DNA of 64,000 nucleotides from an uncultured Bacteroidia bacterium (GTDB lineage Bacteria; Bacteroidota; Bacteroidia; Bacteroidales; UBA932). The position numbers and the translations under genes are program-made. The notes beneath the pieces were generated by a model, which worked only from the letters and a program-made list of their open reading frames with translations, did no database searches and had not been told where the DNA came from. The stretch is from the NCBI GenBank assembly GCA_902798975.1, contig CADBYT010000003.1, positions 41,729 to 105,728 on the forward strand, given 5' to 3'. Within the stretch, counting starts at the first letter, position 1; every line of letters starts with the position of its first letter. This document shows positions 16,225 to 41,866 of this stretch, piece after piece.

Positions 16225-18570
16225 ATGAAACCTTACCTTTCCCTGATTCCGCTGCTCCTGCTGGCCGCCTGCGGCCCGAAATGGCAGGAGACCGAGGCCG
16301 ACGGCTACCGGCTCATTACCCAGAAAGGCGGCGCCACGCTCGGCGTCAGCACCGCCCCCATCCTCCAGGACGGCGGCTACGCCTTCAAGGACCTCAACCG
16401 CAACGGCTCTCTCGACATCTACGAAGACTGGCGGCGTCCCGCCCTGGAACGGGCGCAGGACCTCGCCTCGCAGCTCAGTATCGAAGAGATCGCCGGCCTG
16501 ATGCTCTACAGCGGGCACCAGAGCGTGCCCGGTTCGGCCTACGGCTTCGGGGGCGCCACCTACGGCGGGCAGCCTTTCCCGCAGAGCGGGGCGAACAGCT
16601 GGGATCTCACGGACCAGCAGCGCAAATTCCTCGAAGAAGACAACCTGCGCGCCGTGCTCGTGACCACGGTCGAGAGCCCGGAGGTGGCTGCACGCTGGAA
16701 CAACAACGTCCAGGCCTTCGTGGAGGGGCTGGGGCACGGCGTCCCGGCCAACAATTCCTCCGATCCGCGCAACGAGCCCAGCGCCACCGCGGAGTTCAAC
16801 ATGGGTTCCGGCGGACAGATTTCCCAGTGGCCCACGCCGCTGGGCCTCGCCGCCACCTTCGATCCCGCGCTCGTGGAACAGTTCGGCCGGACCGCCTCGG
16901 CGGAATACCGCGCACTCGGCATCGCCACGGCCCTCAGTCCGCAGATCGACCTGGCCACGGAGCCCCGCTGGAGCCGCTTCAACGGCACATTCGGCGAGGA
17001 CCCCGAGCTGGACATCGCGATGGCCCGCGCCTATGTGGACGGCTTCCAGACCACGGACGGTGCCGCCGGCGGCTGGGGCACGCAGAGCGTCAACGCCATG
17101 ATCAAGCACTGGCCCTCCGGCGGTCCGGAGGAAGGCGGGCGCGACGCCCACTTCAACTACGGCAAGTACGCCGTCTATCCCGGCGGCAACTTCGAGACGC
17201 ACATGCGACCCTTCACCGAGGGCGCTTTCCGCCTGAACGGAGGCACGCAGCGCGCTTCCGCGGTGATGCCCTACTACACGATCTCCTATGGCGTCGACCC
17301 GTCCGGCAAGAATGTCGGCAATAGCTATAATCATTATATAATCAGCGATTTGCTGCGCGGCAAGCACGGCTTCGACGGCGTGGTCTGCACCGACTGGAAC
17401 ATCACCTACGACAACGCCGCCATCGAATCCTTCGACGGCAAATGCTGGGGCGTGGAGGAACTGAGCGTCGCCCAGCGGCACTACGAGGTCATCAAGGCCG
17501 GCGTGGACCAGTTCGGCGGCAACAACGACAAGGGCCCCGTCCTGGAGGCCTACGCCATGTGGGTGGCGGAATTCGGCGAGCAGAGCGCCCGGGAGCGCTT
17601 CGAGCAGTCGGCCGTCCGCCTGCTGATGAATTCCTTCCGCACCGGGCTCTTCGAGAATCCCTACACCGACCCCGCGGCGGCTACGGTCACCGTGGGCAAC
17701 GCAGAATTCATGAAGCAGGGCTACGCGGCCCAGTGCAAGTCCGTCGTGATGCTGAAGAACCGCGGCGGCGTGCTGGAGAAACTGCAGGCCAAACCCGACG
17801 GCCTGCTCGATGAAGAGCAGGTCCCCGAGAACGATACGAAGGTGGCCAAAGTCTATGTGCCGAAGCGCTTCTATCCGCAGAGCATGGGCATGTTCGGTCT
17901 TTCGGCCGGCCCCGCTGCGCACTGGGATTACCCGCTGGACCGTGCCCTGGTGGAGCGCTATTTCGAGTGGGTGGACGATCCTGCCGAGGCGGACTTCGCC
18001 CTGGTGGTCATCCAGGAGCCTGCCGGAGGCAGCGGCTATGACGTAAACGACCGCAAAAAAGGCGGCAACGGCTACGTCCCCATCACCCTTCAGTACCGGC
18101 CTTATAAGGCAGACTACGCCCGCGCGGTGTCCGTTGCAGGCGGCGATCCCAAGGAGAAATTCACCAACCGGTCCTATAAGGGAAAGAAAGTCACGACCGC
18201 CAACGAGGCCGATCTGGATCTCGTGATCGATACCCGGAAGAAGATGGGCGACAAGCCCGTCGTCGTCTTTGTCCAGCTGTCCCGTCCTTTCGTGCCCGCG
18301 GAGATCGAGCCCTGGGCCGACGTGCTCTTCGTGCACTTCGGCGTGCAGAACCAGGTGCTGCTCGACCTCGCCGGAGGAAAGGAGGAGCCGTCAGGCCTGC
18401 TGCCCATGCAGCTGCCCGCCGACATGCGTACCGTCGAGGAACAGGCGGAGGACGTGCCGCACGACATGCGGCCCTACGTCGACGCCGAGGGCCATGCCTA
18501 CGATTTCGCCTACGGCCTCAACTGGTCCGGCGTTATCGACGACGAGCGGGTGCGGCAGTATCGGAAATAA
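16225..18570 (+). CDS. Glycoside hydrolase family 3 lipoprotein
   Basis: 781 residues. I chose ATG 16225 because a lipoprotein signal starts there (PYLSLIPLLLLAACGP, lipobox LAAC). The GH3 N-terminal barrel covers about 60-450; the catalytic nucleophile is the aspartate of VVCTDWNITYD. A C-terminal alpha/beta sandwich follows, but the Fn3-like tail seen in many GH3 enzymes is not obvious. GH3 enzymes remove single sugars from the non-reducing end; beta-glucosidase or beta-xylosidase activity is most likely. A near-consensus -7 (GAACTTTG, 16212-16219) lies five bases before the ATG. The 3' end overlaps the convergent PIN gene by 38 bases. It is the first gene of the esterase/GH3 locus. Confidence 0.9.
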   Translation: MKPYLSLIPLLLLAACGPKWQETEADGYRLITQKGGATLGVSTAPILQDGGYAFKDLNRNGSLDIYEDWRRPALERAQDLASQLSIEEIAGLMLYSGHQSVPGSAYGFGGATYGGQPFPQSGANSWDLTDQQRKFLEEDNLRAVLVTTVESPEVAARWNNNVQAFVEGLGHGVPANNSSDPRNEPSATAEFNMGSGGQISQWPTPLGLAATFDPALVEQFGRTASAEYRALGIATALSPQIDLATEPRWSRFNGTFGEDPELDIAMARAYVDGFQTTDGAAGGWGTQSVNAMIKHWPSGGPEEGGRDAHFNYGKYAVYPGGNFETHMRPFTEGAFRLNGGTQRASAVMPYYTISYGVDPSGKNVGNSYNHYIISDLLRGKHGFDGVVCTDWNITYDNAAIESFDGKCWGVEELSVAQRHYEVIKAGVDQFGGNNDKGPVLEAYAMWVAEFGEQSARERFEQSAVRLLMNSFRTGLFENPYTDPAAATVTVGNAEFMKQGYAAQCKSVVMLKNRGGVLEKLQAKPDGLLDEEQVPENDTKVAKVYVPKRFYPQSMGMFGLSAGPAAHWDYPLDRALVERYFEWVDDPAEADFALVVIQEPAGGSGYDVNDRKKGGNGYVPITLQYRPYKADYARAVSVAGGDPKEKFTNRSYKGKKVTTANEADLDLVIDTRKKMGDKPVVVFVQLSRPFVPAEIEPWADVLFVHFGVQNQVLLDLAGGKEEPSGLLPMQLPADMRTVEEQAEDVPHDMRPYVDAEGHAYDFAYGLNWSGVIDDERVRQYRK

Positions 18571-18988
18571 ACGCCTCCGGCGTCAGGACCGTCGGGGTGA
18601 CCCAGTCCGGGCATAGCCCTTTCCGGATGCGGAAATCCTTCGGGTTGTGGGTGATGATGACCTTGCAATGACCGGATTCGGCGCAGACAGCCTGAAGGAT
18701 ATCTTCGAAATCGGGACCGGCAAGAAGCAGTGCCCGCTGCAACTGTGCGTGATCCATCGGCAAGACCTCCGTCAAGAGGGAGATTTGCTTCAACGTGGGA
18801 GAAAGGATCAATCCGCCAGGATCCTTTCGGAGCACATAGGCGATGTTGGCCATGGTGAGATAGGAGACGCATGGCGAAGCCTTCCCGTCCGCTCCCTGTT
18901 GCAGGATCTCGAGCACCGGCTCATAGCCGGGACGTTCCAGCAGGACATCCAGCAACACGTTGGTGTCCAGGAATAATCGGGGCTTCAT
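18533..18988 (-). CDS. PIN-domain ribonuclease toxin
   Basis: 151 residues with the PIN fold: LFLDTNVLLDVLLERPG at the N-terminus carries the first acidic site (D8), and DFEDILQ plus VIITHNPKDF supply the later ones. The middle block reads YLTMANIAYVLRK, as in a Bacteroidota PIN subfamily that lacks the usual glutamate there. Such toxins cut RNA and are neutralised by a small partner. Its ATG overlaps the stop of the 88-residue partner gene by four bases, the normal toxin-antitoxin layout. The 3' end runs 38 bases into the GH3 gene on the other strand. Confidence 0.87.
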   Translation of the reverse strand: MKPRLFLDTNVLLDVLLERPGYEPVLEILQQGADGKASPCVSYLTMANIAYVLRKDPGGLILSPTLKQISLLTEVLPMDHAQLQRALLLAGPDFEDILQAVCAESGHCKVIITHNPKDFRIRKGLCPDWVTPTVLTPEAFISDTAAPARRR

Positions 18989-19251: not shown

Positions 19252-19265
19252 ATATATACTTTCTG

Positions 19266-19298
19266 CAAAGATATATATAATTTCGAAATAATAACAAA
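19266..19298 (-). promoter_or_regulatory. Promoter of the toxin-antitoxin operon
   Basis: On the minus strand TTTG (19298-19295), a 21-base spacer and TATCTTTG (19273-19266). The region between it and the ATG is an alternating TATATATA tract, a possible autoregulatory site. Confidence 0.75.
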
Positions 19299-19720: not shown

Positions 19721-20995
19721 ATGTACAAACGCCTACTCCTTCTCAGCGCCGTCGCCCTGACGGCCTTCGCCTGCGGCCGGCCGCAGGCTGTCGTAGAACG
19801 CACCGACGTCTATACGCATGTCGGCGATGTCAGCCTGCTGGTGGATGCGGTGGAGATCACCGTCGCCAACCCCGCCTCCCTGCGCGGCCTGACCGCCGCC
19901 GACTTCAACCTCAGCGGCAACGCCGCCGGCGGCTTCATCGACGTGAAGACCGGCCAGGCCCCCGCCGCGTACGACGAAGACGGCCTCGTACTCACTCGCA
20001 CGGGCAATACGCTGCGCATCGACGCCACACCTTTCAACGCCGACGGCATGCGGGAAGGATGGGCCAAGCTCATTCCCTGGGAGCTTCGCTGCAGCGCCGA
20101 TTCCGCCCTCAACGTCACGGCCGCCACGGCCACGGAGCGGCACATCGCCGTCCTGGACGACTGCATCACCGGCAGTTTCAGCTTTGCGGGTCTCACCCGC
20201 GAATACATGCTGCACCTGCCCAAGGACGCGGACGGGAACGTGATTCCGAACGTCCCCCTGATGGTCTGGCAGATCGGCGGAGGAGAGTATGACAAGGACC
20301 TGATGACCGTGGCCACGGCCAACCGCTGCCTGGTCTCGCTCGCCACCGAGGGAATCCCCTGCGCGGCGCTGGTCTTCGCCATCGCGAACCCCAACTACTC
20401 CTACAGCGCCTCCCTCTTCCCGGAGAAGATCGAGCTGATCGACCGCAACAACGCCCTGCAGATGGCCTTCATCGACACGCTGATCGCGGACGGCAAGGTG
20501 GACGGCAGCAAGCTCTTCTGCGCCGGCGCCTCCAGCGGCGGCGGTTGCACGATGCGCTTCATGATGCAGTTCCCGGAGCGCTTCAAGGCCGCCATCCCCT
20601 GCTGCCCCATGGACCCGATCGTTCCCATCCACCGGGTGGATGAGAAATACGAAGGCCAGTTCGCAAACGACCTCGTCAAGGCCTTCAAAGGCAAGGTCTA
20701 CAAATGGAACGGCAGCGACATGGCGCCCGCACCCATCGACACCAAGGCCTTCGTCAAGTTGCCGATGTACTTCGTGCACGCTTCCTCCGACCAGGCCTGC
20801 AAGATCGCCAGCTCCTACGCCTACATCGAGGCACGCAAGCGCCTCGGCGCCACGCAGGACCAGCTGCGCGTCTATTCCGATGAAGATATGGCCGCCTACG
20901 GCCTTCCGACCATGCTCGCCCACTTCTCCTGGGTGCCGCTGCTGGACGATTATTCCGAGGGCAGCGTCATGCGCTGGATGATTGACCAATTCTGA
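19721..20995 (+). CDS. Alpha/beta-hydrolase lipoprotein (putative esterase)
   Basis: 424 residues from the ATG at 19721, where a lipoprotein signal starts (LLLLSAVALTAFACG). The N-terminal ~140 residues look like a beta-sandwich (DVYTHVGDVSLLVDAVEITV). The hydrolase domain has the nucleophile elbow GASSGGG near residue 270 and a distal acid/histidine region (FVHASSDQACKIASSYAYIE; LAHFSWVPLLDD). It resembles secreted depolymerase or feruloyl-esterase-like proteins; the substrate is unknown. It is followed by a GH3 gene after seven bases, and the pair is driven by the 38-bp-site promoter upstream. Confidence 0.8.
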   Translation: MYKRLLLLSAVALTAFACGRPQAVVERTDVYTHVGDVSLLVDAVEITVANPASLRGLTAADFNLSGNAAGGFIDVKTGQAPAAYDEDGLVLTRTGNTLRIDATPFNADGMREGWAKLIPWELRCSADSALNVTAATATERHIAVLDDCITGSFSFAGLTREYMLHLPKDADGNVIPNVPLMVWQIGGGEYDKDLMTVATANRCLVSLATEGIPCAALVFAIANPNYSYSASLFPEKIELIDRNNALQMAFIDTLIADGKVDGSKLFCAGASSGGGCTMRFMMQFPERFKAAIPCCPMDPIVPIHRVDEKYEGQFANDLVKAFKGKVYKWNGSDMAPAPIDTKAFVKLPMYFVHASSDQACKIASSYAYIEARKRLGATQDQLRVYSDEDMAAYGLPTMLAHFSWVPLLDDYSEGSVMRWMIDQF

Positions 20996-21002
20996 TACCG
21001 CT

Positions 21003-23198
21003 ATGCGTAGAACCACTCCCCTTCTGATCCTGGCACTCCTGTGCGCCGCTCCGGCACTCCGCGCCCAGGAATTCACCTATCCTTTCCAGAACCCCGCCCT
21101 CTCCGAGGACGAGCGGCTGGACAACGCCGTATCCCTGATGACCGTGGACGAGAAGATCATGACCGTCACAGGCCAGGGTGTGCCACGGCTCGGCATCGCG
21201 GGTCCAGGCGCCACGGAGGCCATCCACGGCATCGTACGCGGCGGCGACAGCGAACTGCCCGCCCTGGGCGGCAACGCCGGCTTCCCCCGCTGGCCCGGCT
21301 GGACCCCGCCCAAGTACCGCAACAGCACATCTTTCCCGCAGGCCTACGGCATCGGCGAGACCTGGGACCGGGAAATGGCCTTCATCGTGGGCGACGTGAT
21401 GTCCTATGAGGCTCGTTTCTATTCCAACGACGCGCCCTTCAAGACCCTCGTACTCTGGGCTCCCAACGCCGACCTCGCCCGCGATCCCCGCTGGGGCCGC
21501 ACCGAGGAGAGCTTCGGCGAGGACCCCTACCTCGTGGGTGAACTGGTGGCCGCCGAGGTGCGCGGCATCCAGGGCGACGACCCGAAGTACTGGCGCGGAG
21601 CGGCGCTGATGAAGCATTTCCTGGCCAACAGCAACGAGGACGGACGCTTCGGCACCGACTCCCGCTTCGACGAGGCCCTCTTCCGGGATTACTATTCCTA
21701 TGGATTCTGGAAAGGCGCCCGCGCCGGGGGCAAGTCCCTGATGACCGCATACAACGCATACAACGGCGTGCCCTGCATCGCGAACGACTTCATCGGCACC
21801 ATCCTGCGCGATGAATGGGGCATGGACGGCACCATCGTGGACGACGCCGGCGCCCTGCGCTACATGGTGGATCCGCACGGCTATGCCCCCGACATCAACA
21901 CGGCTATCAAAATGGCCCTGGAGGCCGGCCTGACGCGTTTCATCGACTCCAATTTCCAGCAGGTCAAGACGGCCTACGACGCCGGATTCATCTCCGATGA
22001 GGTGCTGGACGCCCGCACGAAGTGCAACCTCCGCACCATGCTCAAGCTTGGCCTGATGGACGCAGAATGCCCCTATGACAAGCAGTCCTTCGGCTCCGAC
22101 GAAGACCTCCCCTGGGAGCGCCAGGAGTTCAAGGACAAGGCCCGCCTGGTCACGCAGAAATCCATCGTCCTGCTGAAGAACGAGGGCAAGCTGCTGCCGC
22201 TCGACAGGGGCAAGGTCAAGAAAATCGCCGTGTTCGGCAACCGCGCCGAGGCCGTCCTGAAGGACTGGTACGGTGCGCTCCCCGCATACCGCGTGAGCCC
22301 GCTCGAGGGTATCAAAGCCAAGGTCGAAGGCACCGACGTGGAAGTGCGCTTCCAGCGCTGGGACTCCGACGGCACCGCGCAGAAGCTCGCCAAATGGGCG
22401 GACGTCTGCATCGTCTGCGTCGGCAACCATCCCGCCACCAGCCCCGACTGGGAAGGCCAGACCGTCCAGTCTCCCTGGGCTTACGGCACCGTGGCCGGTG
22501 ACGGCCGCGAGGCGCTGGACCGCCGCTCCCTGCAGCTGGAGACCGAGGACCTGATCAAGGTCGTCTGGCAGGCCAACCCCAACACCGTGGTCACGCTGAT
22601 CAGCAGCTTCCCCTTCGCCATCAACTGGACGGCGCAGCACGTGCCCGCCATCGTGCACCTCACCCACTGCAGCCAGGAACTCGGCAACGCTCTTGCAGAC
22701 GTGCTCTTCGGCGACTACAATCCCGCCGGCCGCCTCACCCAGACCTGGGTTTCCGACATTCTCGACCTGCCGAACATGCTGGACTACGACATCCGCCACG
22801 GCCGCACCTACATGTATTTCAAGGGCAAGCCCATCTTCCCCTTCGGATTCGGCCTCAGCTACACCAGCTTCAGGTATTCCGGCCTCAGGGCCAGCCGCGA
22901 CGGCGACGACTTCGTGTTCCGCTTCAAGCTGAAGAATACCGGCAGCCGGGATGGCGAGGAAGTCGTGCAGCTCTATGCGAGCTTCCGGGGTGACGACGCC
23001 GCCCGCCGCCTGCGCGGCTTCGAGCGCATCGCTGTCGCCGCCGGCGAAACAAAGGAGGTCGAGATCCGCGTCCCCGCCGACGACCTCAAGCTCTGGGACA
23101 GCAACGCCCACGCCTTCGCCTTCCGCGGCAAGCGCGCCAAGATTCAGATCGGCGCCTCTTCGGCCGATATCCGGCTGAAAAAGACAGTCAAGCTGTAA
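21003..23198 (+). CDS. Glycoside hydrolase family 3 (beta-xylosidase/glucosidase-like)
   Basis: 731 residues from the ATG at 21003, giving a signal peptide (LLILALLCAAPALRAQ). WAPNADLARDPRWGRTEESF and GEDPYLVG are hallmark blocks of the xylosidase-like GH3 branch. The nucleophile is the aspartate in TIVDDAGALRY, where many relatives have SD. The order is barrel, alpha/beta sandwich (FNPAGRLTQTW-like block), and C-terminal Fn3-like domain (RDGEEVVQLYASF). It probably cuts single sugars from oligosaccharides in the periplasm. It is translated from the same transcript as the esterase upstream and ends at a strong terminator. Confidence 0.92.
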   Translation: MRRTTPLLILALLCAAPALRAQEFTYPFQNPALSEDERLDNAVSLMTVDEKIMTVTGQGVPRLGIAGPGATEAIHGIVRGGDSELPALGGNAGFPRWPGWTPPKYRNSTSFPQAYGIGETWDREMAFIVGDVMSYEARFYSNDAPFKTLVLWAPNADLARDPRWGRTEESFGEDPYLVGELVAAEVRGIQGDDPKYWRGAALMKHFLANSNEDGRFGTDSRFDEALFRDYYSYGFWKGARAGGKSLMTAYNAYNGVPCIANDFIGTILRDEWGMDGTIVDDAGALRYMVDPHGYAPDINTAIKMALEAGLTRFIDSNFQQVKTAYDAGFISDEVLDARTKCNLRTMLKLGLMDAECPYDKQSFGSDEDLPWERQEFKDKARLVTQKSIVLLKNEGKLLPLDRGKVKKIAVFGNRAEAVLKDWYGALPAYRVSPLEGIKAKVEGTDVEVRFQRWDSDGTAQKLAKWADVCIVCVGNHPATSPDWEGQTVQSPWAYGTVAGDGREALDRRSLQLETEDLIKVVWQANPNTVVTLISSFPFAINWTAQHVPAIVHLTHCSQELGNALADVLFGDYNPAGRLTQTWVSDILDLPNMLDYDIRHGRTYMYFKGKPIFPFGFGLSYTSFRYSGLRASRDGDDFVFRFKLKNTGSRDGEEVVQLYASFRGDDAARRLRGFERIAVAAGETKEVEIRVPADDLKLWDSNAHAFAFRGKRAKIQIGASSADIRLKKTVKL

Positions 23199-23286: not shown

Positions 23287-25548
23287 TTAGATGCTGACGG
23301 TCGCCTGCTGGCGGATGTCGTCGGAGGCGGCGCCGAGGAGGAGCTGCAGGGTGCCGTGCTCCAGATCCCAGGCGTTCTTGCTCACGTTCCAGTAGCGGAG
23401 ATCCTTGACCGGAATCTCCAGGGTGACGGTCTTCTTCTCGCCGGCCTTGAGGCTGACGCGGGCGAAGGCCTTGAGCTCCTTGGCGGGCCACTCGACCGTG
23501 GCACCCGGACGGGCCACGTAGAGCTGAACCACCTCGTCGGCGTCCATGCCGCCCTCGTTGGCCAGCTCGAAGGAGACCTTGACGGCGTTCTGGTCAGCGG
23601 AAGCGCTCATCTCGCCATAGCCGAAGTTCACATAGGAGAGGCCGTGGCCGAAGGCGTACATCGGCTTGACATTTTTGGTGTCGAACCAGCGGTAGCCCAC
23701 GAGCGAGCCCTCGGTGTACTTGGACACCGGCTTGGGCAGCGCGTCGATGAAGGCCTGGCGCTCCTCGGGGCTCATCTTCAGGACGTCCTCGCGGTACATC
23801 AGGGTGAAGAGGTCGCCACCTTGCGTCTTGTCGGGGAAATTGCCCAGCGCGAAGGCCGGGGAATCCTCGAGCTTCGCCGGGAAGGTGAACGGCAGCTTGC
23901 CGGACGGGGCGATGTCGCCGAACAGGACTTCGGCCAGCGCGGTGCCGCCCTCGGTGCCGTTCCACCAGCCCTGGACGATGGCCGGGCTGACGGGCTCGAG
24001 CTGACGCAGGTCGGTGGGACCGCCGGAAATCAGCACGGTCACGAGGTTCTTATTGGCCGCGTAGAGGGCCTTGACGACCTCGTTCTGGCCGACGGGCAGG
24101 TCGATGTTGGTGCGGTCGCTGCCTTCGGTCTCGATGCTCTTGTTGGTGCCGCCGAAGAAGATGACGATGTCAGCCTGCTTGGCGAGCTTGACGGCCTCGG
24201 CGAGCAACTTCTTGTCGGCCGGCTCATCGATGGCGTCCGCCTCCAGCGGGTTCTTGACAGCCGGGGCGGGACCCCAGCGACGGCCCGGGAAGTTCTTGTA
24301 GCCGGGTGCGTAGAGCACTTCCACGCCCGCACCGGCACGCTTCCGGATACCCTCGAGCGGGGTGACCTCGTAGAGGGCCTTCACACCGGCGCCCATGCCG
24401 CCGGACTGCGTTTTCAGGACGGCGTTCTGGCCGATGACGGCGATCTTCTTGACGCCGCCGGCGAGCGGCAGGATGCCGCTTTCGTTCTTCAAGAGGACGA
24501 TGGACTTCTCGGCCACCGCCTTGGCAATTTGCTGGCACTCGGGCTGGGAGGTCATCTGCGTATTGGCGACGTCGTCCGGAATGGCTTCGATGGCGTAGCG
24601 GACGCGCAGGATCTGCTTGACCTTGTCGTTCACCATCTGCTCGGTCAGGGCGCCGGTGGCAATGGAGTCGATGACCGGCTGGCCGAGGTAGTTGTCACCC
24701 GTCATCTGGACGTTCAGGCCATGGAGCATGGCGCCCATCGTGCTGTGGGTGCCGCCCCAGTCGGAAACGGTGAAGCCCTTGAAGCCCCATTCGCCGCGCA
24801 GGATCTCGTTCAGCAGGTGCTCGTTCTCGGAGCAATAGTCGCCGTTGACCTTGTTGTAGGCCGGCATCACGCTCATGGCGCCGCCTTCGATGATGGCGCG
24901 CTCGAAGGGCTTGAGGTAAATCTCACGCAGGGTGCGCTCGTCCACCTGGGCGTCGACGCTGCCGCGGTTGGTCTCCTGGTTATTCACGGCGAAGTGCTTG
25001 ATACACACGGCTGTACCCTGATCCTGGACACCCTTGGTGTAGCCCAGGGAGAGAGCGGCGCTGAGGATAGGATCCTCGCTCAGGTACTCGTAAGTGCGGC
25101 CGCCGACCGGCAGGCGCTGGATGTTCACGGCCGGGCCGAGGATGACATCCTTGCCGCGCAGGCGGGCCTCGATACCCATACCCTTTCCGTACTGGTATGC
25201 CAGGTCCTCGGACCAGGTGGCCGCGAGGGCGGAGCCCGTCGGGAAATAGGTGGCGGAGTCGAGCTGCCAGCCCGCGGACTGGAAGCCGTTGGGCACGCCC
25301 TCTTCGCGGATGCCGAAGGGGCCGTCGGCATAATGCATGTCGGCGATGCCGAGGCGCTCGACACCGGCGGAGGACATGTTCGTCTTGCTGTGAAGCATGT
25401 TGACCTTCTCCTCCAGGGTCATCTGGGCAATGATCTTGTCGATCTGCTTGTCATTGACCGTCAGGCGGTCCTGGGGGCCCGGGGTCGATTGTCCGCAAGC
25501 GGAAACGAGGGCTGCCGCCGCGAACAGGTAAAGGATTTTCTTGTACAT
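23287..25548 (-). CDS. Glycoside hydrolase family 3 beta-glucosidase-like lipoprotein
   Basis: 753 residues from the ATG at 25548, where a lipoprotein signal starts (KKILYLFAAAALVSACG). The nucleophile is the aspartate of FTVSDWGG. The substrate-binding block ILGPAVNIQRLPVGGRTYEY and the KHFAVNNQE motif are typical of BglX-type GH3. The alpha/beta sandwich and an Fn3-like C-terminal domain (GGMDADEVVQLYVARPG) follow. Removal of terminal glucose or xylose in the periplasm is likely. Its promoter carries the same 38-bp site as the esterase at 19721. Confidence 0.93.
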   Translation of the reverse strand: MYKKILYLFAAAALVSACGQSTPGPQDRLTVNDKQIDKIIAQMTLEEKVNMLHSKTNMSSAGVERLGIADMHYADGPFGIREEGVPNGFQSAGWQLDSATYFPTGSALAATWSEDLAYQYGKGMGIEARLRGKDVILGPAVNIQRLPVGGRTYEYLSEDPILSAALSLGYTKGVQDQGTAVCIKHFAVNNQETNRGSVDAQVDERTLREIYLKPFERAIIEGGAMSVMPAYNKVNGDYCSENEHLLNEILRGEWGFKGFTVSDWGGTHSTMGAMLHGLNVQMTGDNYLGQPVIDSIATGALTEQMVNDKVKQILRVRYAIEAIPDDVANTQMTSQPECQQIAKAVAEKSIVLLKNESGILPLAGGVKKIAVIGQNAVLKTQSGGMGAGVKALYEVTPLEGIRKRAGAGVEVLYAPGYKNFPGRRWGPAPAVKNPLEADAIDEPADKKLLAEAVKLAKQADIVIFFGGTNKSIETEGSDRTNIDLPVGQNEVVKALYAANKNLVTVLISGGPTDLRQLEPVSPAIVQGWWNGTEGGTALAEVLFGDIAPSGKLPFTFPAKLEDSPAFALGNFPDKTQGGDLFTLMYREDVLKMSPEERQAFIDALPKPVSKYTEGSLVGYRWFDTKNVKPMYAFGHGLSYVNFGYGEMSASADQNAVKVSFELANEGGMDADEVVQLYVARPGATVEWPAKELKAFARVSLKAGEKKTVTLEIPVKDLRYWNVSKNAWDLEHGTLQLLLGAASDDIRQQATVSI

Positions 25549-33104: not shown

Positions 33105-36100
33105 TTAGAAGGTGATATTAATACCGAAGACGACCTTCTTGGCGGTAGGATAGGAACCCTTGTCCACGCCGAGGCTGCTTCCGGTACCGGTGATCTCAGG
33201 ATCGAAACCCGGATAGTTGGAGAAGGTGAACCAGTCGTCCAGGGAACCGTAGATGCGGAGGTTCTCCACCTTGAACTTGCGGGTGAAGCTCTGCGGCAGG
33301 GTGTAGCCCAGCTGGATCTGCTTGATCTTGACATAGCTGCCGTCAAAGACGACCGCGTCGGAGGTCAGGTACTGCTGCCAGTTGGCGGCATTGGCGGCCG
33401 GTTTGGTACCGTTGGTGTGGTCCGGCGTCCAGCGGTCCTCCGTGAGGAAGGACAGGCGGTTGGACGGATAGTCCACCACGGTGAGGCAGTTGTAGATCTT
33501 GCTGCCGGCGGCGCCGGTAAGGAAGACCACGGCGTCGAGGCCCTTCCAGGCGGCGTTGAGGGTGAGACCGAAGTTCACCGTCGGAATACCGGAACCGAGG
33601 TCCATCTTGTCGGCCTGGGTGGTGTCGCCGCTGCCGTCGAGGTCCTGGAAAATCGCATTGCCGTTCGCAGGATCGATGCCGAGGAAATGATAGCCGTAGA
33701 AGTGCCATGCGGGATAGCCCGTTTCGAAACGGGTGATGGTGCCGTAGTTGCGGACGCCCGTTCCGTCAATACCGTCGGAGAGGGTCTCATGCAGGTAGGT
33801 CACCTCGTTCTTCAGGGTGGAAAGGTTACCGCCGATGCTGTAGCTGAAGTCGCCGATCTGGTCGCGCCACTTGATCTCGAACTCGAAACCGGTGTTTCGG
33901 ACATTACCGGCGTTCACCGGAGAGGCGGTCACACCCACCACGGTGGACGGGGTGATGCCGGTCACGATCAGGTCCTTGGTCATCTTGTTGAACCAGTCGA
34001 CGCTGAAGGTCAGTCGGTCGCGCAGGAAGCGCAGGTCGAGGCCGAAGTTCAGCTGCTCGGAGGTCTCCCACTTGAGCTCCTCGTTACCCGTGGAGGAAGG
34101 AGCGTAGCCGAGGAGGTAATCCAGGCCGTTGCCGGTCGGATAGTTGCCCGTCTGGGCGATCACGTTGGCGTAGCGGTATCCGCTCAGGCCGGCGAGGGAA
34201 CCGTTCTGGCCCCAGCTGGCGCGGAATTTCGCGTAGTTGACAGCGCTCTTGAGGGAGCGGAAGAACGGCTCTTCGGAGATCGTCCAACCGGCGGACACGG
34301 AGGGGAAGTAGCCCCAGCGTCTCGGCTTCGGGAGGATGGAAAGGTCAGCCGCATCAGCACGGAAGGAAGCCTGCAGGTTGTACTTGTTCTGGTAGCTCCA
34401 GTTGGCACGTGCGAAGTAGGAAAGCTTGCGGGAAATGTTCGGGGTGGCACCGCCCACGGAAGGAACGGCGTTGGCCGAGTGGGAACCGAAGTAGTAGAAC
34501 AGCGGATCGTTCTGGGTGACACCGAGATCATCGTCGCTGCCGCGGTAGCCTCCGTTCATGGAGAAGCTGCGGGAGCTGGTGAAGGAGGTACCCACCATCA
34601 CGGTTACGTTGTGCTTGCCGAAGCTCTGGTTCCAGTTGGCGAAGTTCTCCCACTGATAGTACATGGAGTTGCTGTCGGAACCGGAGAGGCCGATATAGTT
34701 CTGGTAAGCGTTCTGGTTGATGTAGTAGTTGAGGCTGTAACCGTAGTTGTCACTGGCGGAGAAGCGGTAACCCACGCGGGAAGTAATGGTCAGGTGCTTC
34801 CAGGGCGTGAAGTTGATGGCCGTGGAACCGTTGATGTTGAAGCCGTGGGAATCGCTGTAGGAACGGTCGCGCATGATGCGCGGGTTCACGTTCTCGGACG
34901 GGTTGAAATAAGAGGCGGCGTAGTAGTTGCCGTTCTCGTCCTTGAGCAGGTTGCGGCCGCTGTCCAGGTAGGACTGCATGAAGGCGGGGAGCTCATCCGG
35001 AGCATAGGTCGTAGGAGTAAGCGGGTCGAGCTGGAGGGCGGAGAGTACGGCGGAACCGTAGTCGGAGCCCTCGGAGACGCTGCGGGCCTGATAGTACTCG
35101 ACCTGGTTGTTGGTCTGGATTTCCAGCCAGGGCTTGAACTTCCAGGAGGCGTTCACCATGAAGGTCAGACGCTTGTAGACGTCGGAGTCACCCACGAACA
35201 TACCGTTGTTGTCCAGGTAGGAAGCGGAAACATAGAGATTGCCGCGGTCGGCACCGGCGCTGAACGACAGGTTGTGGTGCTGCATCAGGGAGTTCTCGTA
35301 AGAATAGGCCAGCCAGTCGGTATTGGTCTTGAAGTCCCAGTTGGCATAGAAGTCCGTGATGGTGTAGCGGCCGTTCTCGATGAAATACTGCATGTACTGC
35401 TCGGCATTCATCACCTTCGGCACGTGGTTCAGACTCTGCGAAGTGAGCTGATAGGAATAGCTGATCCGGCCCTCGCCCTGGCCGCGGCGGGTGGTGATCA
35501 TGATCACACCGTTACCGGCCTCGGCGCCGTAGATAGCGGCGGAAGCACCGTCCTTGAGGACTTCCATGGACTCGATATCGTTCGGGTCGATACCGGCGAT
35601 GGAGTTGGTGCGGCGGCCGTCCACGACGTACAGCGGGTTGGAGGAGCCGTTGGAGGAAATACCACGGACCTGGATGCTCGGAGAGGCGCCCGGACGGGCG
35701 GAGCTGGAGAACACCTGCACGCCGGCGGTCTTGCCCTGGAGAGCGGATTCCGGCGAGGTGATGGTACGGTTCTGGATGTCCTCGGATTTCACTTGGGAAA
35801 TGGAACCGGTCACATCTGATTTTCTCTGGACACCGTAGCCAACGACCACGGTTTCTTCCAGCATCTCCGCGTCGGTGATGAGTTTGACGTTGAGCGTACG
35901 GGACTCGTTCACGACGATCTCCTGGGTGGTGAAACCGACAGAGGAGAACACCAGCGTCGCGCCGGCAGGTACGGAGATGGAATAGTTGCCGTCAAAGTCC
36001 GTCACGACGCCGTTGGTCGTGCCTTTCTCGAAGACACCGACACCGATCATCGGCTCGTTCTGGTCATCGACGACTGTTCCGGAGACGGTCACCCGCGTCT

Positions 36101-36173
36101 GTGCCGCAAGCGAGAGTCCCATCAAGAGCGACAGCCCGAGGGCCGCCAGTCTTTTCAATGCAGAATTACTCAT
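33105..36173 (-). CDS. SusC/RagA family TonB-dependent outer-membrane transporter
   Basis: 1022 residues. The order is: signal peptide; carboxypeptidase-regulatory-like domain at about 28-105 (VSGTVVDDQNEPMIGVGVFE); a TonB-box-like segment; the plug at about 115-235 (SALQGKTAGVQVFSSSARPG, PLYVVDGRR); a 22-strand barrel ending in aromatic NITF. It imports the glycan captured by SusD, powered by TonB. It is the second gene of the operon after the carboxylesterase. The plug motifs and the C-terminal signature are intact. Confidence 0.96.
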   Translation of the reverse strand: MSNSALKRLAALGLSLLMGLSLAAQTRVTVSGTVVDDQNEPMIGVGVFEKGTTNGVVTDFDGNYSISVPAGATLVFSSVGFTTQEIVVNESRTLNVKLITDAEMLEETVVVGYGVQRKSDVTGSISQVKSEDIQNRTITSPESALQGKTAGVQVFSSSARPGASPSIQVRGISSNGSSNPLYVVDGRRTNSIAGIDPNDIESMEVLKDGASAAIYGAEAGNGVIMITTRRGQGEGRISYSYQLTSQSLNHVPKVMNAEQYMQYFIENGRYTITDFYANWDFKTNTDWLAYSYENSLMQHHNLSFSAGADRGNLYVSASYLDNNGMFVGDSDVYKRLTFMVNASWKFKPWLEIQTNNQVEYYQARSVSEGSDYGSAVLSALQLDPLTPTTYAPDELPAFMQSYLDSGRNLLKDENGNYYAASYFNPSENVNPRIMRDRSYSDSHGFNINGSTAINFTPWKHLTITSRVGYRFSASDNYGYSLNYYINQNAYQNYIGLSGSDSNSMYYQWENFANWNQSFGKHNVTVMVGTSFTSSRSFSMNGGYRGSDDDLGVTQNDPLFYYFGSHSANAVPSVGGATPNISRKLSYFARANWSYQNKYNLQASFRADAADLSILPKPRRWGYFPSVSAGWTISEEPFFRSLKSAVNYAKFRASWGQNGSLAGLSGYRYANVIAQTGNYPTGNGLDYLLGYAPSSTGNEELKWETSEQLNFGLDLRFLRDRLTFSVDWFNKMTKDLIVTGITPSTVVGVTASPVNAGNVRNTGFEFEIKWRDQIGDFSYSIGGNLSTLKNEVTYLHETLSDGIDGTGVRNYGTITRFETGYPAWHFYGYHFLGIDPANGNAIFQDLDGSGDTTQADKMDLGSGIPTVNFGLTLNAAWKGLDAVVFLTGAAGSKIYNCLTVVDYPSNRLSFLTEDRWTPDHTNGTKPAANAANWQQYLTSDAVVFDGSYVKIKQIQLGYTLPQSFTRKFKVENLRIYGSLDDWFTFSNYPGFDPEITGTGSSLGVDKGSYPTAKKVVFGINITF

Positions 36174-36188: not shown

Positions 36189-37664
36189 TTAGTTGGATAT
36201 AGAAGATTCAAGATTCAGCAGCATCGTCGCCGGACGTGCGACCGTGTACGGTTCCCATTCGGGCATACCGTCCGCGGACGGGACGCCCGTCTTGGCGAAG
36301 TTCGTCCAGAGGCGGCTGATGCGGTGACCCAGTTCGACGGCGTCCGCTCCCCCGCCCGTGAACGTGCGGTGCAGCTCGACGTTGTCGAAGACGAAAGGAA
36401 TCTCGATGCAGTGCGTGCTGCCGAAGGCGCCGTCCAGCACCGGGGATTCCCAGGTAAATTGATAGAGGTATACGGGCGCGCAGCCGGCAGCGGCCCGGTC
36501 GGCGGCCTGCTGGACAGCCAGCGGCTTGAAGATCGGGTCTTCCCGGTCGCGCGTGAATTCATGATAGGTCGTGCCGATGATGACCGGGATGTCCCTGGAC
36601 AGGGCCATGGAGGCCGGCGCGCCGGGCTGGGCGGGCAAGATGGCGCCGTCCACCACCGGACGCGTGCCGAAAATGATCTGGTTCAGGAAGTTGGCGGGAA
36701 GCTCGCCGGCCTGTTCCGCTTCCGCGCGTACGAGCGCGACCGCTTTATCATAAGCGGCGAGCAGCGTCGCATATGGAACTGCCTGGATGTCGTCGATGCG
36801 GGACGGGCTGATGCCGAGCTCGCGGACCGTGGCGGCGCCGATGCGGCGGGACCACTTCTGCGGCAGCGCCTCCAGGATGGAGCCGCTCTCGACGATCGCC
36901 TTGCCGAAGAGGCCCTGGGCGGAAGGCATGGCCAGCAGGGTGCAGACCTTGCCGCCACCGCCGGACTGGCCGAAGATGGTCACGTTGGCGGGATCGCCGC
37001 CGAACGCGGAAATATTGTCACGCACCCACTCCAGCGCCTTCACGATGTCGGTCATGCCGAGGTTGCCGGAAGCGGCGTACTTGGCGCCGAAACCGGACAG
37101 ATCGAGGAAACCGAGCACGTTGAGACGGTGGTTCAGGCTGACGACCACGACGCCGTGGTCGCGCGCGAGATTCGAACCGTCATAGGAAATCTGCTCCTGG
37201 CCGGAACCGGCGCTGAAACCGCCGCCGTGCAGCCAGACCATCACAGGGCGCTTCCGGCCGTCGTTGATGCCGGCCGTCCAGATATTGACGCGCAGGCAGT
37301 CCTCGTCGGGAAAGCCGTCGTCCCAGTGCATGGCAAAAGCCTGATTATCATCATACCATCCCGTCCTGGCCCCCTGCGGGCAGGTCGGACCGTAGGCGCG
37401 ACTGGACCGGACACCTTCCCAGGCATCGGGATCGGTGGCGGGCTGGAAGCGCTCGGCCTTGGCATAAGGAATACCTTTAAAAGTAATGACGCCGTCTTCG
37501 ATGTAACCGGCGACGGCTCCGGACCGGGTCTGTACCGTAGCCGCTTTGGCGGAAGTCTCCAGCTCGTGGTGGGCGTCGGACTTCACCGGGGGGTTGCCGG
37601 TGCCGCAGGAGAGCGGCACCAGACAAGCCGCGATCATCAGGAATAGTGTTCTCACTTGTTTCAT
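36189..37664 (-). CDS. Type-B carboxylesterase lipoprotein
   Basis: 491 residues with a lipoprotein signal (CLVPLSCG). The COesterase fold is shown by GIPYAKAERFQP, EDCLRVNIW, VMVWLHGGGFSAGSG (oxyanion hole) and VVVVSLNHRLNVLGFL. The nucleophile elbow reads GQSGGGG where most relatives have GESAGG. The acid is probably in the FAFVFDN-like block and the histidine in GSTHCIEIPFVF. It hydrolyses carboxylic esters; its location as first gene of the SusCD operon suggests it acts on the imported substrate. The promoter (-7 at 37689) lies in the shared region with the hybrid regulator. Confidence 0.88.
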   Translation of the reverse strand: MKQVRTLFLMIAACLVPLSCGTGNPPVKSDAHHELETSAKAATVQTRSGAVAGYIEDGVITFKGIPYAKAERFQPATDPDAWEGVRSSRAYGPTCPQGARTGWYDDNQAFAMHWDDGFPDEDCLRVNIWTAGINDGRKRPVMVWLHGGGFSAGSGQEQISYDGSNLARDHGVVVVSLNHRLNVLGFLDLSGFGAKYAASGNLGMTDIVKALEWVRDNISAFGGDPANVTIFGQSGGGGKVCTLLAMPSAQGLFGKAIVESGSILEALPQKWSRRIGAATVRELGISPSRIDDIQAVPYATLLAAYDKAVALVRAEAEQAGELPANFLNQIIFGTRPVVDGAILPAQPGAPASMALSRDIPVIIGTTYHEFTRDREDPIFKPLAVQQAADRAAAGCAPVYLYQFTWESPVLDGAFGSTHCIEIPFVFDNVELHRTFTGGGADAVELGHRISRLWTNFAKTGVPSADGMPEWEPYTVARPATMLLNLESSISN

Positions 37665-37834: not shown

Positions 37835-40800
37835 ATGAAAATAAAGCAATTGATTTCCCTGGCCTTCCTGTTGCCCATCGCCTGCACCGGACCGCAACGC
37901 ACGGTCGCCGTCCCGGCGCCCGACGGCGTCATCATTGCAGACCGGCTGTCCAACCAGAAGGTGAATGCTTTTGCGGAAGACGCCGATGGCCACATCTGGA
38001 TCGGCACCTTCCGCGGGCTGAACAAATATACCATCCACGACTTCCACCAGTATTTCTGCACCGACGACACCCTCGGACTGCCGGACAACCAGGTCACTGC
38101 CCTGCGGCGAAGCAGCGACGGCAAGCTTTGGATCGGGACCGTCAATGGCGTCGCCATCCGTACGGAAGACGGGGATTTCCGGCGGATTCCGATGGATGGC
38201 GGCAACCTCAACATCAGCGAGATCGTCGAAACCCGCGACGGGCGCATGCTCTTCAACGGATCCGGACAGATGTACCGCTACGACCCCGACAGCGGTCACA
38301 TCGTGCCTGCTATCCGCGATTACGGCGGCTACAGCACGATGGTGGGGGCAGACGGCCGGATCTGGACCTCTACCCTGCAGGAGCTCCGCTGCTTCGATCC
38401 GGCCGGGTTCTCCCCTGCCGGCACCTGGCCCACACGCCACTTCGTCTACCATTCCACCCTGGCTGCAACGGGTGAAATCTGGCTTTCCGGCATGGGGCAG
38501 CTGAGCATTTTCGATCCGCGCACGGAGAAGTGGGCGGAGATACCGCGAGTCATCCTGCAGGAGTCCCGCCTGACCCGGGGCGATATCGATATCCTCTTCG
38601 CCAACGGGACGGACATCCTGCTCCACACCATCGCGGACGGCATGTTCTGCTACAGTCTGACCACAGGGAAGCTGCTGCACCAGTCCGATCCCGGATTCCC
38701 CTACCAGATCCCGGATTTCGAGATCCGCACCCTGTTCCGCGACAGCCACGGCAACCTCTGGTTCGGCTCCACGGACCAGGGATACAGCATCTCCTACACC
38801 GACAAGGACGGCTTCGACAGCATCCCCCTCCTGAAAAGCCGCTTCAGTAACACCTCCATTCCCTCCGTTTGCGCCGACCATGACGGGAACCTCTGGATCG
38901 CCACCTACAACGACGGCCTCTACGTCTACAACATCTTGTCCAGGGAGCTGAAACGGATGGAGATCAACCACCTCGTGCCCAACAGCAACATCGGTTACAT
39001 ACGTTGCTCACACATTTTTTGCGATGCCCAGGGCGAGCTGTGGCTGACCATGACCGAGAAATACTGCGTACTGCGCTGCCGGTATGACGGGAAACAGCTG
39101 CACGCAGTGGACCTCATCGGAATGACCGTCCCCCTTGCCATTTCGCAGGACGACCTGGACCGCATCTGGATCTCCGGCTACTCCGACGAACTTGTCCGCT
39201 ATGACAAGAACACCCGCACCCAGGAACGCTTCCACCTGCCGTCCGACCAGTGGACCTTTGTCCCCACCCTGCTTCAGGTCGCGCCCGGGCGCATGCTCGC
39301 CGCCTCCTTCGCCAACCCGATGTGCGAAGTCTTCACCAACTCGGGGGAGATGCAGTTCATCCGGATGCCGGACGAGGAGTGGCGGCACAATATCCGTCAC
39401 GGCGTCATCATCCCCACCAGCCTGTTCCGCGACAGCGCCGGCGACATTTGGCTCGGCACCGTCGGCAACGGACTGCTGCACCGCGAGCGCGACACCCAGC
39501 TCACCCGTCCCATAGAAGGACTCCCCTGCCCGGATATCTGCGCTATCCAGGAAGACCACCAGGGCAATGTATGGATCAGCACGATGTATGGCCTGGCCCG
39601 CTACGACCGCACCGTCGGCACGGTCACCAGTTTCTTCGAGAGCGACGGCCTGGGCGGGAACCAGTTCTACGACCGCTCGTCCTGCATCCTGCCGGACGGC
39701 ACGCTCATCTTCGGCGGCACGCACGGCCTGACCTGCTTCAACCCGCTGGACATCAGCAGGAAAGTCTCACGGCCCGTGACCTTCGAGGACCTCAAGATAC
39801 ACAACATCCTCGTCCAGCCCGGCCCCGGCGCTCCGATTGAACGCGAACTGACCAGCCAGCCCGAGATCACGATCCGTCACGACCAGAACGGCTTCAGCAT
39901 CTCCTACGCTGCGCTCGAATACACTCCACACGCCAACGTGCGCTATGAATACCGGATGGAAGGGTTCGACGACTACTGGATCAATGCCGGCACGGCGAAC
40001 GAGGCGTATTACGCCAACCTCCCGGCGGGGCACTACCGTTTCCGGGCCCGGATCCAGGACGAGCCGGACAGCGAGCAGTCTCTTTCCGTCCACATCCTAC
40101 CACCCTGGTACCGCACCTGGTGGGCCCGTATTCTCTCCTGGATCGTTATCGTCGGTGTGATCGCCTTCGTCTGGCTGGTCTACCGTCGCATTCACCGCGT
40201 CCGCAAACAGGCAGCCAAGTCCATCCGCGAGGAGCGGCGCGAACGCGAACGCGCAGAAGCTGCCCAGGAGGAAGAGAAGCGTCTCAACCGCATCCAGATG
40301 AATTATTTTGCCAACGTGGCACATGAGTTCCGCACCCCGCTCACGATGATTGCAGGCCCGGTGGAGCAGCTTGCCGCCTCGCCCGCCATCCAGGGACAGG
40401 ACCGCAAGCTGCTGGGCATCGCCCAGCGCAACACCGCCTGGATGCTCTCGCTGGTGGGCCAGCTGCTGGATTTCAACCGCATCGGAAACAAGAAACTCCG
40501 GCTCAAAGTGGCCGAAGGCGACATCGTGGCACCGCTCAGTGAGACCGCCGACCTGTTCCGCTTCAACGCGGAATCCAAGGGCATCGAATTCAACACCCAC
40601 GGTCTGGAAGACAGCTTCACCATGTGGCGGGACGCCGACAAGGTGACCAAGATCACGATGAACCTGCTGTCCAATGCGATGAAATTCACGCCTCCGGGCG
40701 GCATGGTGGCCCTTTCCTTTGACGTCCTCCCCCGCGAGGATGTCGAGCGGGAGTTCGCGCTCACGGAGGCCGACACCGACTCGCAGTACGCCCAGATCCG

Positions 40801-41866
40801 TGTCTCCGACACGGGCCGCGGGATTCCGGAAGACGAGCTCGAGAAGATATTTGAACGCTTCCACCAGGCCGGCCGGGGCGACGCCGCCGGCACCGGCATC
40901 GGTCTCTACTATTCCCGCGCGCTCGCGGGGCTGCACCACGGCTATATCCACGCCCGCAACCGCGACGGCGGCGGGGCTGAGTTCACCCTGATCCTGCCCG
41001 TCAGCGCATCCTCCTACACGGACGACGAGCGCACCACGGACGATCCGCTGCGCCAGCGCATTCCGTTCGCCGAGACAGCCGCCCCCGCGCAGCCGATCCC
41101 GGACGATTCGGAGGAGAAGCGCCGCGTGGTCGTCGTGGACGACGATATCGACGTGGCCAACTATGTCAAGGTACTCCTCTCCCCTTATTATCAGGTACTT
41201 GTGCACTTCGATGCCGAGTCTGCGCTGAAATCCCTCGAGGAGGAGGCGCCGGATCTTGTGATCAGCGACGTAGTGATGCCCGGCAAGAGCGGCTACGAGC
41301 TCTGCGAAACCATCAAGGGCAATCTCCAGCTCAGCCACATCCCCGTAATCCTGGTCACGGCCAAGGTGGCCGTGGAGAGCCAGATCCAGGGCCTCGACAA
41401 GGGCGCGGACGCCTACGTGACCAAGCCCTTCAACCCGTCCTACCTGCTGGCGCTCGTGAAATCCCTGCTGGAGAACCGCGACAAGCTGCGCCAGCGGCTC
41501 GGTTCCGTGACCAGCACCGAGGACATCGAACCGGAAGCGCTGTCGCCGCGCGACAACGCCTTCATGAAGGAGCTTTATGACTTGATGGACAAGGAGTTGG
41601 CAAATCAGGAGCTGGACATTAACCGTATCACGGAAATGATGCGCATCTCCCGCACCAAGTTCTACTACAAGGTCAAGGGCCTGACGGGCGAGAATCCGGG
41701 CGTCTTCTTCAAGCGCTACAAGCTCAACCGCGCCGCCGACCTGCTCAAGGAGGGCAAGCACAACATGTCGGAGATCGCGTGGATGACGGGCTTCAACACC
41801 CTCTCCCACTTCTCCACCTCCTTCAAGAAGCAGTTCGGCGTCCCGCCGTCGGAATATCTGGGATAA
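37835..41866 (+). CDS. Hybrid two-component system sensor/response regulator (HTCS)
   Basis: 1343 residues. The N-terminus has a hydrophobic signal ending LPIAC17, a possible lipobox. Residues ~35-680 form two beta-propellers with reg-prop motifs such as HIWIGTFRGLNKY and LWIGTVNGV, then a Y_Y_Y domain at ~685-755. One transmembrane helix lies at about 763-785. The histidine kinase follows with H830 in VAHEFRTPLTMI and the ATPase G-box GTGIGLYYSRALAG. The receiver domain starts at about 1096 (VVVVDDDID) with D1145 in ISDVVMP. An AraC-type DNA-binding domain ends the protein. HTCS proteins sense an oligosaccharide in the periplasm and activate the adjacent locus, here very likely the SusCD operon and the 38-bp-site promoters. 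Confidence 0.96.
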   Translation: MKIKQLISLAFLLPIACTGPQRTVAVPAPDGVIIADRLSNQKVNAFAEDADGHIWIGTFRGLNKYTIHDFHQYFCTDDTLGLPDNQVTALRRSSDGKLWIGTVNGVAIRTEDGDFRRIPMDGGNLNISEIVETRDGRMLFNGSGQMYRYDPDSGHIVPAIRDYGGYSTMVGADGRIWTSTLQELRCFDPAGFSPAGTWPTRHFVYHSTLAATGEIWLSGMGQLSIFDPRTEKWAEIPRVILQESRLTRGDIDILFANGTDILLHTIADGMFCYSLTTGKLLHQSDPGFPYQIPDFEIRTLFRDSHGNLWFGSTDQGYSISYTDKDGFDSIPLLKSRFSNTSIPSVCADHDGNLWIATYNDGLYVYNILSRELKRMEINHLVPNSNIGYIRCSHIFCDAQGELWLTMTEKYCVLRCRYDGKQLHAVDLIGMTVPLAISQDDLDRIWISGYSDELVRYDKNTRTQERFHLPSDQWTFVPTLLQVAPGRMLAASFANPMCEVFTNSGEMQFIRMPDEEWRHNIRHGVIIPTSLFRDSAGDIWLGTVGNGLLHRERDTQLTRPIEGLPCPDICAIQEDHQGNVWISTMYGLARYDRTVGTVTSFFESDGLGGNQFYDRSSCILPDGTLIFGGTHGLTCFNPLDISRKVSRPVTFEDLKIHNILVQPGPGAPIERELTSQPEITIRHDQNGFSISYAALEYTPHANVRYEYRMEGFDDYWINAGTANEAYYANLPAGHYRFRARIQDEPDSEQSLSVHILPPWYRTWWARILSWIVIVGVIAFVWLVYRRIHRVRKQAAKSIREERRERERAEAAQEEEKRLNRIQMNYFANVAHEFRTPLTMIAGPVEQLAASPAIQGQDRKLLGIAQRNTAWMLSLVGQLLDFNRIGNKKLRLKVAEGDIVAPLSETADLFRFNAESKGIEFNTHGLEDSFTMWRDADKVTKITMNLLSNAMKFTPPGGMVALSFDVLPREDVEREFALTEADTDSQYAQIRVSDTGRGIPEDELEKIFERFHQAGRGDAAGTGIGLYYSRALAGLHHGYIHARNRDGGGAEFTLILPVSASSYTDDERTTDDPLRQRIPFAETAAPAQPIPDDSEEKRRVVVVDDDIDVANYVKVLLSPYYQVLVHFDAESALKSLEEEAPDLVISDVVMPGKSGYELCETIKGNLQLSHIPVILVTAKVAVESQIQGLDKGADAYVTKPFNPSYLLALVKSLLENRDKLRQRLGSVTSTEDIEPEALSPRDNAFMKELYDLMDKELANQELDINRITEMMRISRTKFYYKVKGLTGENPGVFFKRYKLNRAADLLKEGKHNMSEIAWMTGFNTLSHFSTSFKKQFGVPPSEYLG

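Follow-up and report, generated by a model that had tools for sequence, protein, structure and literature searches.

A 64,000-nucleotide stretch of DNA from an uncultured Bacteroidia bacterium (henceforth termed the window) contains, between 16.2 and 41.9 kb, a polysaccharide utilization locus (PUL) that combines a SusC/SusD pair (SusCD) with six esterase-family genes, three genes for glycoside hydrolases of family 3 (GH3), and a hybrid two-component system regulator (HTCS). No plant-polysaccharide endo-glycanase (GH10, GH43, GH5 or similar) was found among the Pfam-scanned window proteins. With moderate confidence, we favor the reading that this is an HTCS-controlled uptake and deacylation locus for acylated (acetyl and/or feruloyl) xylo-oligosaccharides, which would be supplied by the cell's own xylanases or by neighbors, depending on the host. 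The window corresponds to positions 41729–105728 of contig C3 in genome G000 (2.09 Mb in 39 contigs, 71% complete), and its right end is the end of that contig. A search with the window SusD retrieved 21 loci from Bacteroidales or Bacteroidia records, several of them named for rumen, omasum or reticulum; the host of the window is most likely a rumen-type member of the Bacteroidales.

Architecture and recurrence of the locus

A sequence-only reading of the window had listed three GH3 enzymes, six esterases, SusC, SusD, a lipoprotein at the SusE/F position, and an HTCS in this region, and Pfam scans, which took in a selection of the window proteins smaller than the full list of open reading frames (ORFs), bore out this list (Table 1). 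The susC and susD genes are adjacent, separated by 14 bp, and are linked to the HTCS, GH3 and esterase genes, a combination characteristic of SusCD-type PULs. Seven genes, in the order carboxylesterase, SusC, SusD, lipoprotein, CE1d, CE1c, and CE1b, form a tight unit on one strand from 37664 down to 27046 with spacings of 3–21 bp, and the remaining genes of the locus are distributed over both strands. Because of their common direction and short gaps, the seven genes can be read as one putative operon that diverges from the HTCS gene. The expectation that no endo-glycanase, GH10 or GH43 would be visible in the locus also held for the Pfam-scanned proteins. GH43 (PF04616) had no match in the proteins of the locus, and none of the 12 GH43 matches in the genome lies on contig C3.

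The related loci establish that this is a real, recurring esterase–GH3 SusCD locus. Counts refer to 20 related loci (L009–L028) with a SusD identity of at least 60%, many of which end at contig ends or at the 10 kb flank; L029 (SusD identity 33%) was excluded from every count. Counterparts of the PF00135 carboxylesterase gene (at least 65%) and of the HTCS gene (at least 45%) occur in 12 and 13, respectively, of the 15 related loci with visible flank. The lipoprotein (34% and up) recurs in 19 of 20 loci, CE1d in 15 of the 16 that extend sufficiently far, a CE1b/c relative (at least 60%) in 12 of 20, and a relative of GH3a, GH3b or GH3c (at least 65%; fragments below 100 amino acids omitted) in 6 of 20. 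While the members recur, gene order varies. In genomes G158 and G161, a CE1/GH3c group lies beside a LacZ-type gene on a contig other than that carrying SusCD (L038, L039), and L040 extends the G155 locus L016, bringing in CE1b/c relatives. No endo-xylanase or other plant endo-glycanase was found among the 22 ORFs that were Pfam-scanned out of 41 unmatched ORFs in related loci. These 22 include transporters, TonB-type receptors, regulators, an exonuclease, an alpha/beta hydrolase, a GH3 fragment, a LacZ-type GH2, a leucine-rich-repeat protein, and several proteins with domains of unknown function or other proteins; five were without a match.

Table 1. Genes of the locus, flanking and distant genes of the window, and LacZ-type genes in related loci. 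Signal types and lipoboxes were assigned by reading N-termini by eye.
Feature	Position	Strand	Domain or score
GH3a, lipoprotein-type signal	16225..18570 (ORF from 16198)	+	GH3 domain
Alpha/beta-hydrolase esterase, lipoprotein-type signal	19721..20995 (ORF from 19610)	+	PF00326, 38.5 bits (cut-off 22.6)
GH3b with Fn3 domain, SPI-type (signal peptidase I) signal	21003..23198 (ORF from 20982)	+	GH3 domain
GH3c with Fn3 domain, lipoprotein-type signal	23287..25548 (ORF open to 25632)	-	GH3 domain
CE1a, N-terminal CBM48-like domain and CE1, SPI-type signal	25719..26801 (ORF from 25677)	+	PF00756, 61.7 bits (gathering score 22)
CE1b, N-terminal CBM48-like domain and CE1	27046..28185	-	PF00756, 94.5 bits
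CE1c, N-terminal CBM48-like domain and CE1	28195..29418	-	PF00756, 91.3 bits
CE1d, lone CE1 domain, lipoprotein-type signal	29431..30282	-	PF00756, 99.5 bits
SusE/F-position lipoprotein, two NGYNFPDWGIAGGS repeats, predicted mostly beta	30286..31518	-	no Pfam match
SusD-like lipoprotein	31540..33090	-	PF07980, 110.6 bits (cut-off 23.1)
SusC/RagA TonB-dependent transporter	33105..36173	-	TIGR04056, 799.8 bits (cut-off 368)
PF00135 carboxylesterase, lipoprotein-type signal, first gene of the putative operon	36189..37664	-	PF00135, 309.7 bits (cut-off 27)
HTCS, divergent from the putative operon	37835..41866	+	Pfam scan
YceG/MltG cell-wall gene	15110-16174	-	Pfam scan
Glucosaminidase-LysM protein, directly beside HTCS, not part of the gene set	41868-42863	-	PF01832
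LacZ-type GH2, 13 kb off the locus	54666-57629		Pfam scan
LacZ-type GH2 in a relative	L016:1-2820		
LacZ-type GH2 in a relative	L038:15080-18277		
LacZ-type GH2 in a relative	L039:3502-6582		

Among the neighboring genes, the Glucosaminidase-LysM protein is endo-acting by name; we take its domain to belong to a peptidoglycan-type enzyme and not to a plant-polysaccharide enzyme. The two-domain hydrolase that had been noted at 13248 is real, but the YceG/MltG gene stands between it and the locus, and it is not counted as a member. In L047, which comprises the 20 kb to the left of the window and was examined by BLAST, one further GH3-like ORF (29% identity) was detected. Overlapping ORFs without a Pfam match (20967–23228, 25668–26744 and 19733–21076 on the minus strand, and 15071–16165 on the plus strand) were rejected as shadow ORFs, and the ORF at 18871–19344 on the plus strand had no Pfam match.

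Several additional features were observed in the relatives. A second esterase-rich SusCD locus follows immediately after the PUL on contig C8 of G153 (L035:19607 to L036:17986). It holds two CE1-like and two GH3-like genes, genes for Sde182-like proteins (both of those scanned match PF07632), and a pair of CE1c paralogues at 44–52% identity. A protein of 323–324 amino acids adjoins the HTCS in this lineage (L035:18286–19260, the same gene as L014:210–1184, and L011:3–974), and one similar by its first residues lies elsewhere in G153; the one that was scanned had no Pfam match. In one relative, a 677-amino-acid protein with leucine-rich-repeat and EF-hand matches (L018:15255–17288) is encoded beside CE1c.

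Esterase kinship and proposed route of the substrate

Four of the six esterase-family proteins are CE1-like, each with a PF00756 domain above the cut-off. In a pattern reading for serine-hydrolase motifs, all six esterases show a G-x-S-x-G elbow, and the four CE1 proteins and the PF00135 protein also have a candidate catalytic histidine; for the acid residue, the 6rzn alignments of CE1a and CE1c are the only ones to show it. On this basis, a PF00756 domain together with a serine-hydrolase triad, the combination expected for a CE1-type feruloyl/acetylxylan esterase, was found. The best PDB match of CE1b and CE1c is 6rzn (311 and 320 bits), with the next distinct proteins at 159 and 194 bits, respectively, and 6rzn is likewise the nearest entry for CE1a (192 bits). 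This entry is wtsFae1B, a CBM48-CE1 feruloyl esterase, as named in PMC8040265. CE1d has its best PDB match in the feruloyl esterase 7xrt (97 bits), and the esterase at 19721 is nearest to 3doh (47 bits). CE1a, CE1b, and CE1c also align to an NCBIfam xylanase/feruloyl-esterase model with E values of 4e-44 to 6e-43, which is below the cut-off of the model. As judged by these matches, the CE1 proteins of the locus are nearest to feruloyl esterases.

A connection to xylan is also apparent at the genome level. CE1c homologues share one open frame with GH10 in four of the five GH10-bearing genomes checked (G149, G155, G158 and G161; not G000), single frames being deduced from agreeing frame lengths and positions of both matches, and the genome of the window encodes a 1047-amino-acid GH43-F5/F8-CE1 fusion protein (L041:15341–18484). 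Together, the CE1 kinship and the GH10–CE1 frames in four relatives point to xylan fragments, which should already be short, since the gene set contains no endo-enzyme. Other acylated hemicellulose fragments or phenolic glycosides could instead be the substrates.

In characterized PULs, SusD and a surface lipoprotein capture oligosaccharides, which SusC imports. The SusE/F-position lipoprotein of the window contains two copies of NGYNFPDWGIAGGS spaced 125 residues apart; this motif occurs twice in 14 of 16 aligned lipoproteins including that of the window, and the exact motif is not present in L011 and L026. Searches for a known family or fold gave no Pfam match, no match to PDB sequences, and no convincing fold match for this protein. 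The N-termini point to a periplasmic location for CE1a–c and GH3b, and to a lipoprotein nature for the carboxylesterase, the 19721 esterase, CE1d, GH3a, and GH3c. In the route we propose, pre-cut, still esterified oligosaccharides would bind to SusD and the two-repeat lipoprotein and be taken in through SusC. Acyl groups would be removed by the three CBM48-CE1 esterases, probably in the periplasm, and by three lipoproteins, namely CE1d, the PF00135 protein and the 19721 protein. GH3 enzymes of a beta-xylosidase/glucosidase type would then shorten the chain from the end, with xylose passing into metabolism via XylA. The backbone would be cut elsewhere, namely by separate GH10/GH43 loci in the window genome and probably by neighbors in the case of nine relatives without a GH10 match. 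Gene content, layout, families, co-occurrence and matches at the genome level are what the analysis shows, while the substrate, the enzyme specificities, localization, regulation and cross-feeding are inferred.

Two kinds of host and the proposed supply of oligosaccharides

Genome searches covered 17 genomes, that is G000 and 16 relatives with the PUL; L012, L019, L020 and L024, which are short contigs, were left out. On contigs other than C3, G000 holds two GH10 and twelve GH43 matches. Contig C6 carries GH67 and GH10 genes with a SusC-like fragment (26% identity) and, as judged by eye, a SusD-like ORF nearby, C14 carries BD-FAE-GH43, GH51-like, GH3, CE1-like, GH43-GH43, and GH127 genes, C24 encodes a GH43-CE1 fusion, and C31 a GH10. 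With these GH10 and GH43 genes of its own, feeding by other bacteria is therefore not required here. The same inventory, including the GH67, the fusion proteins and the GH127, would suit an alternative in which the locus serves the cell's own arabinoxylan system as an esterase accessory, i.e., a rumen version of the esterase-genes-enriched (EGE) arabinoxylan PUL of Bacteroides intestinalis, with its GH43 and GH10 on other contigs; PMC7815789 regards a contribution of enzymes from outside the EGE PUL as likely. However, nine of the 16 relatives have the PUL but no GH10 match and few GH43 matches, so that such a partnership is not obligatory, and we regard this account as possible but doubtful.

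The genomes fall into two kinds. GH10 is found in eight (G000, G149, G150, G155, G158, G159, G160 and G161), with 6–20 GH43 matches each. In the nine others (G151, G152, G153, G154, G156, G157, G162, G163 and G164) no GH10 match was obtained, GH8, GH30 and GH98 not having been searched, and GH43 matches number 0–5. GH11 had no match in any of the 17 genomes. The claim of the sequence-only reading that the oligosaccharides are released by other bacteria is thus unnecessary for the window genome, but it fits these nine relatives. The arabinose gene araA is present in seven of the eight GH10-bearing genomes (not G160) and had no match in any of the nine GH10-less ones. The gene xylA is present in 15 of 17 (13 over the cut-off and two, G150 and G159, by partial matches; not G162 and G164), and it is kept in seven of the nine GH10-less genomes. 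Completeness figures exist for G000 and G153 (via G034, whose coordinates it shares); the GH10-less G153 is listed as 98% complete, and an assembly gap is therefore an unlikely reason for its missing GH10. G164 (1.7 Mb) may be a fragment.

By simple count, the tie between GH10 and araA gives a Fisher p of 0.0004, in genomes that are related and whose completeness is mostly unknown. Independent pairs number three on the tree of ribosomal protein S1, all in the same direction (p 0.25), and four on the SusCD tree, of which 3.7 on average point in the same direction and none in the opposite one (median p 0.125); the link is suggestive but falls short of proof. Genomes with the GH10 label do not cluster beyond chance on the S1 tree, where 256 of 500 shuffles were as low; on the SusCD tree they cluster weakly (37 of 500). 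Given the missing GH10 in nine of 16 relatives and the absence of GH11 matches throughout, GH10-less hosts plausibly take up pre-cut oligosaccharides. Their lack of araA suggests that these hosts profit from a xylose or glucose backbone rather than from arabinose.

Several observations weigh against acylated xylo-oligosaccharides as the substrate. The araA pattern argues against arabinose-rich feruloylated oligosaccharides as the main benefit, GH5 is found in all 16 relatives, and the LacZ-type GH2 genes beside the gene set in L016, L038 and L039 are unexplained by a xylan substrate. In G153, the xylAB cluster (GH3, FGGY kinase, GH2, GH31, GH43, SASA-type esterase, GH130, and GH26) has GH31, GH26 and GH130, so that xylose could stem from xyloglucan and the substrate could be a different hemicellulose; the stronger of two GH5 matches in this genome is a BACON-GH5 protein in another locus. 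Moreover, GH3 specificity, as far as sequence comparison goes, is not settled by family membership. GH3b has its best NCBIfam score with the Xyl3A xylosidase model, far under the cut-off, and GH3c, which is nearest to 8va7 in the PDB, scores best with an arabinopyranosidase model, again far under the cut-off. GH3a is closest to the beta-glucosidase 9ul7 (309 bits), followed by SN243 (7qe1, 206 bits), which we take to be a GH3 beta-glucuronidase, and is nearer to both than to xylosidases.

Much of this could be accommodated if the substrate were another acylated hemicellulose oligosaccharide, for instance one from acetylated xyloglucan or mannan, on which GH3 glucosidases would work together with GH31/GH26/GH130/LacZ-type partners. 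We consider this unlikely, because CE1b and CE1c are nearest to feruloyl esterases, these genomes contain fusions of CE1 domains of this family with GH10 or GH43, the GH31/GH26/GH130 cluster, which was looked at in G153 alone, is separated from the PUL by ca. 42 kb, and GH5 gave no match in G000. Import of esterified plant phenolic glycosides or glucuronides is highly improbable, the SN243 match of GH3a being its one specific support, as GH3a is nearer to 9ul7, a Clavibacter enzyme according to PMC13021860, and a GH3a relative occurs within the fetched flank in just one of the 20 related loci (L014).

Comparison with a single marker gene, encoding ribosomal protein S1, is hinting at horizontal movement of the locus. 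SusC and SusD of the window are 82.3–83.6% identical to those of G150–G154, G156 and G157, while S1 is only 66.3–67.5% identical; for G161 and G163, S1 is 94.8% and SusCD 78.8% identical to the window. G155 groups with the window on the SusCD tree (98/99) and with other genomes on the S1 tree (100/100; partial S1 row), and placing the window together with G149 and G162, as S1 does, was rejected on SusCD (p-AU, from the approximately unbiased test, 0.008; the G162 branch is long). Against free spread, G150–G154, G156 and G157 stay together on both trees (100/100 for S1, 90/88 for SusCD). The S1 tree is without G160, which had no match, and it includes G155, G159 and G152 with partial rows, that of G155 being drawn from the hits of one or both of two fragments. 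SusD at E ≤ 1e-150 is found in four of 149 genomes of the family, including that of the window, and in none of the 10 other same-genus genomes among those listed, which fits a patchy locus. We therefore offer, tentatively and with less than even confidence, a wider picture in which a mobile, endo-glycanase-free locus for acylated oligosaccharides spreads among rumen Bacteroidales genera. In this picture, xylanolytic hosts would recover their own esterified fragments, hosts without GH10, GH11 and araA would act as “acylated-oligosaccharide scavengers” using the xylose (or glucose) backbone alone, and the lipoprotein would carry a new sugar-binding repeat.

Relation to known systems

Esters on xylan fragments limit fiber digestion. 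If the proposed function holds, the combination of SusCD and many esterases without an endo-enzyme would allow direct tests of cross-feeding on esterified oligosaccharides, and the locus could mark scavenger versus degrader lineages among uncultured rumen Bacteroidales. A search by title and abstract start, with most subscription journals outside its coverage, found no literature on an endo-free esterase PUL.

Competition in the rumen for released xylan sugars is an established idea (PMC6344614). The work on Butyrivibrio hungatei MB2003 shares the idea of a rumen bacterium that lives on xylan sugars released by another species; it speaks of ABC transporter binding proteins, whereas the window contains a SusCD locus of Bacteroidales (PMC6344614). 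At the level of single proteins, wtsFae1B (6rzn) is matched by CE1a, CE1b, and CE1c in domain order and as nearest sequence. Dysgonomonas mossii PUL 17, with an assumed xylan target, likewise unites several CBM48-CE1 esterases in one PUL; it also encodes a CE6 and a CE1-CE1 fusion, neither of which was seen in the window locus (PMC8040265).

The closest counterpart is the EGE PUL, a term for PULs in which more than two genes encode known or putative carbohydrate esterases (PMC7815789). The six esterase-family genes place the window locus within this definition, provided that all of them act on carbohydrates, as we infer. It shares with the EGE PUL of B. intestinalis the SusCD pair, an HTCS, more than two esterases including CBM48-CE1 proteins, and GH3 (PMC7815789). 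The B. intestinalis locus, characterized as inducible by complex arabinoxylan, has three GH43, two of them reported as endo-acting, and a CE6/CE1 protein, whereas the window locus has no GH43 or CE6-type match and instead contains three GH3, a PF00135 esterase, and the SusE/F-position lipoprotein of unassigned family. CE1b and CE1c are also nearer to 6rzn than to the EGE esterase 6mot (155 and 183 bits, respectively). Esterase-rich PULs have thus already been described (PMC7815789), and the window locus is a variant without endo-acting GH43 and not the same system.

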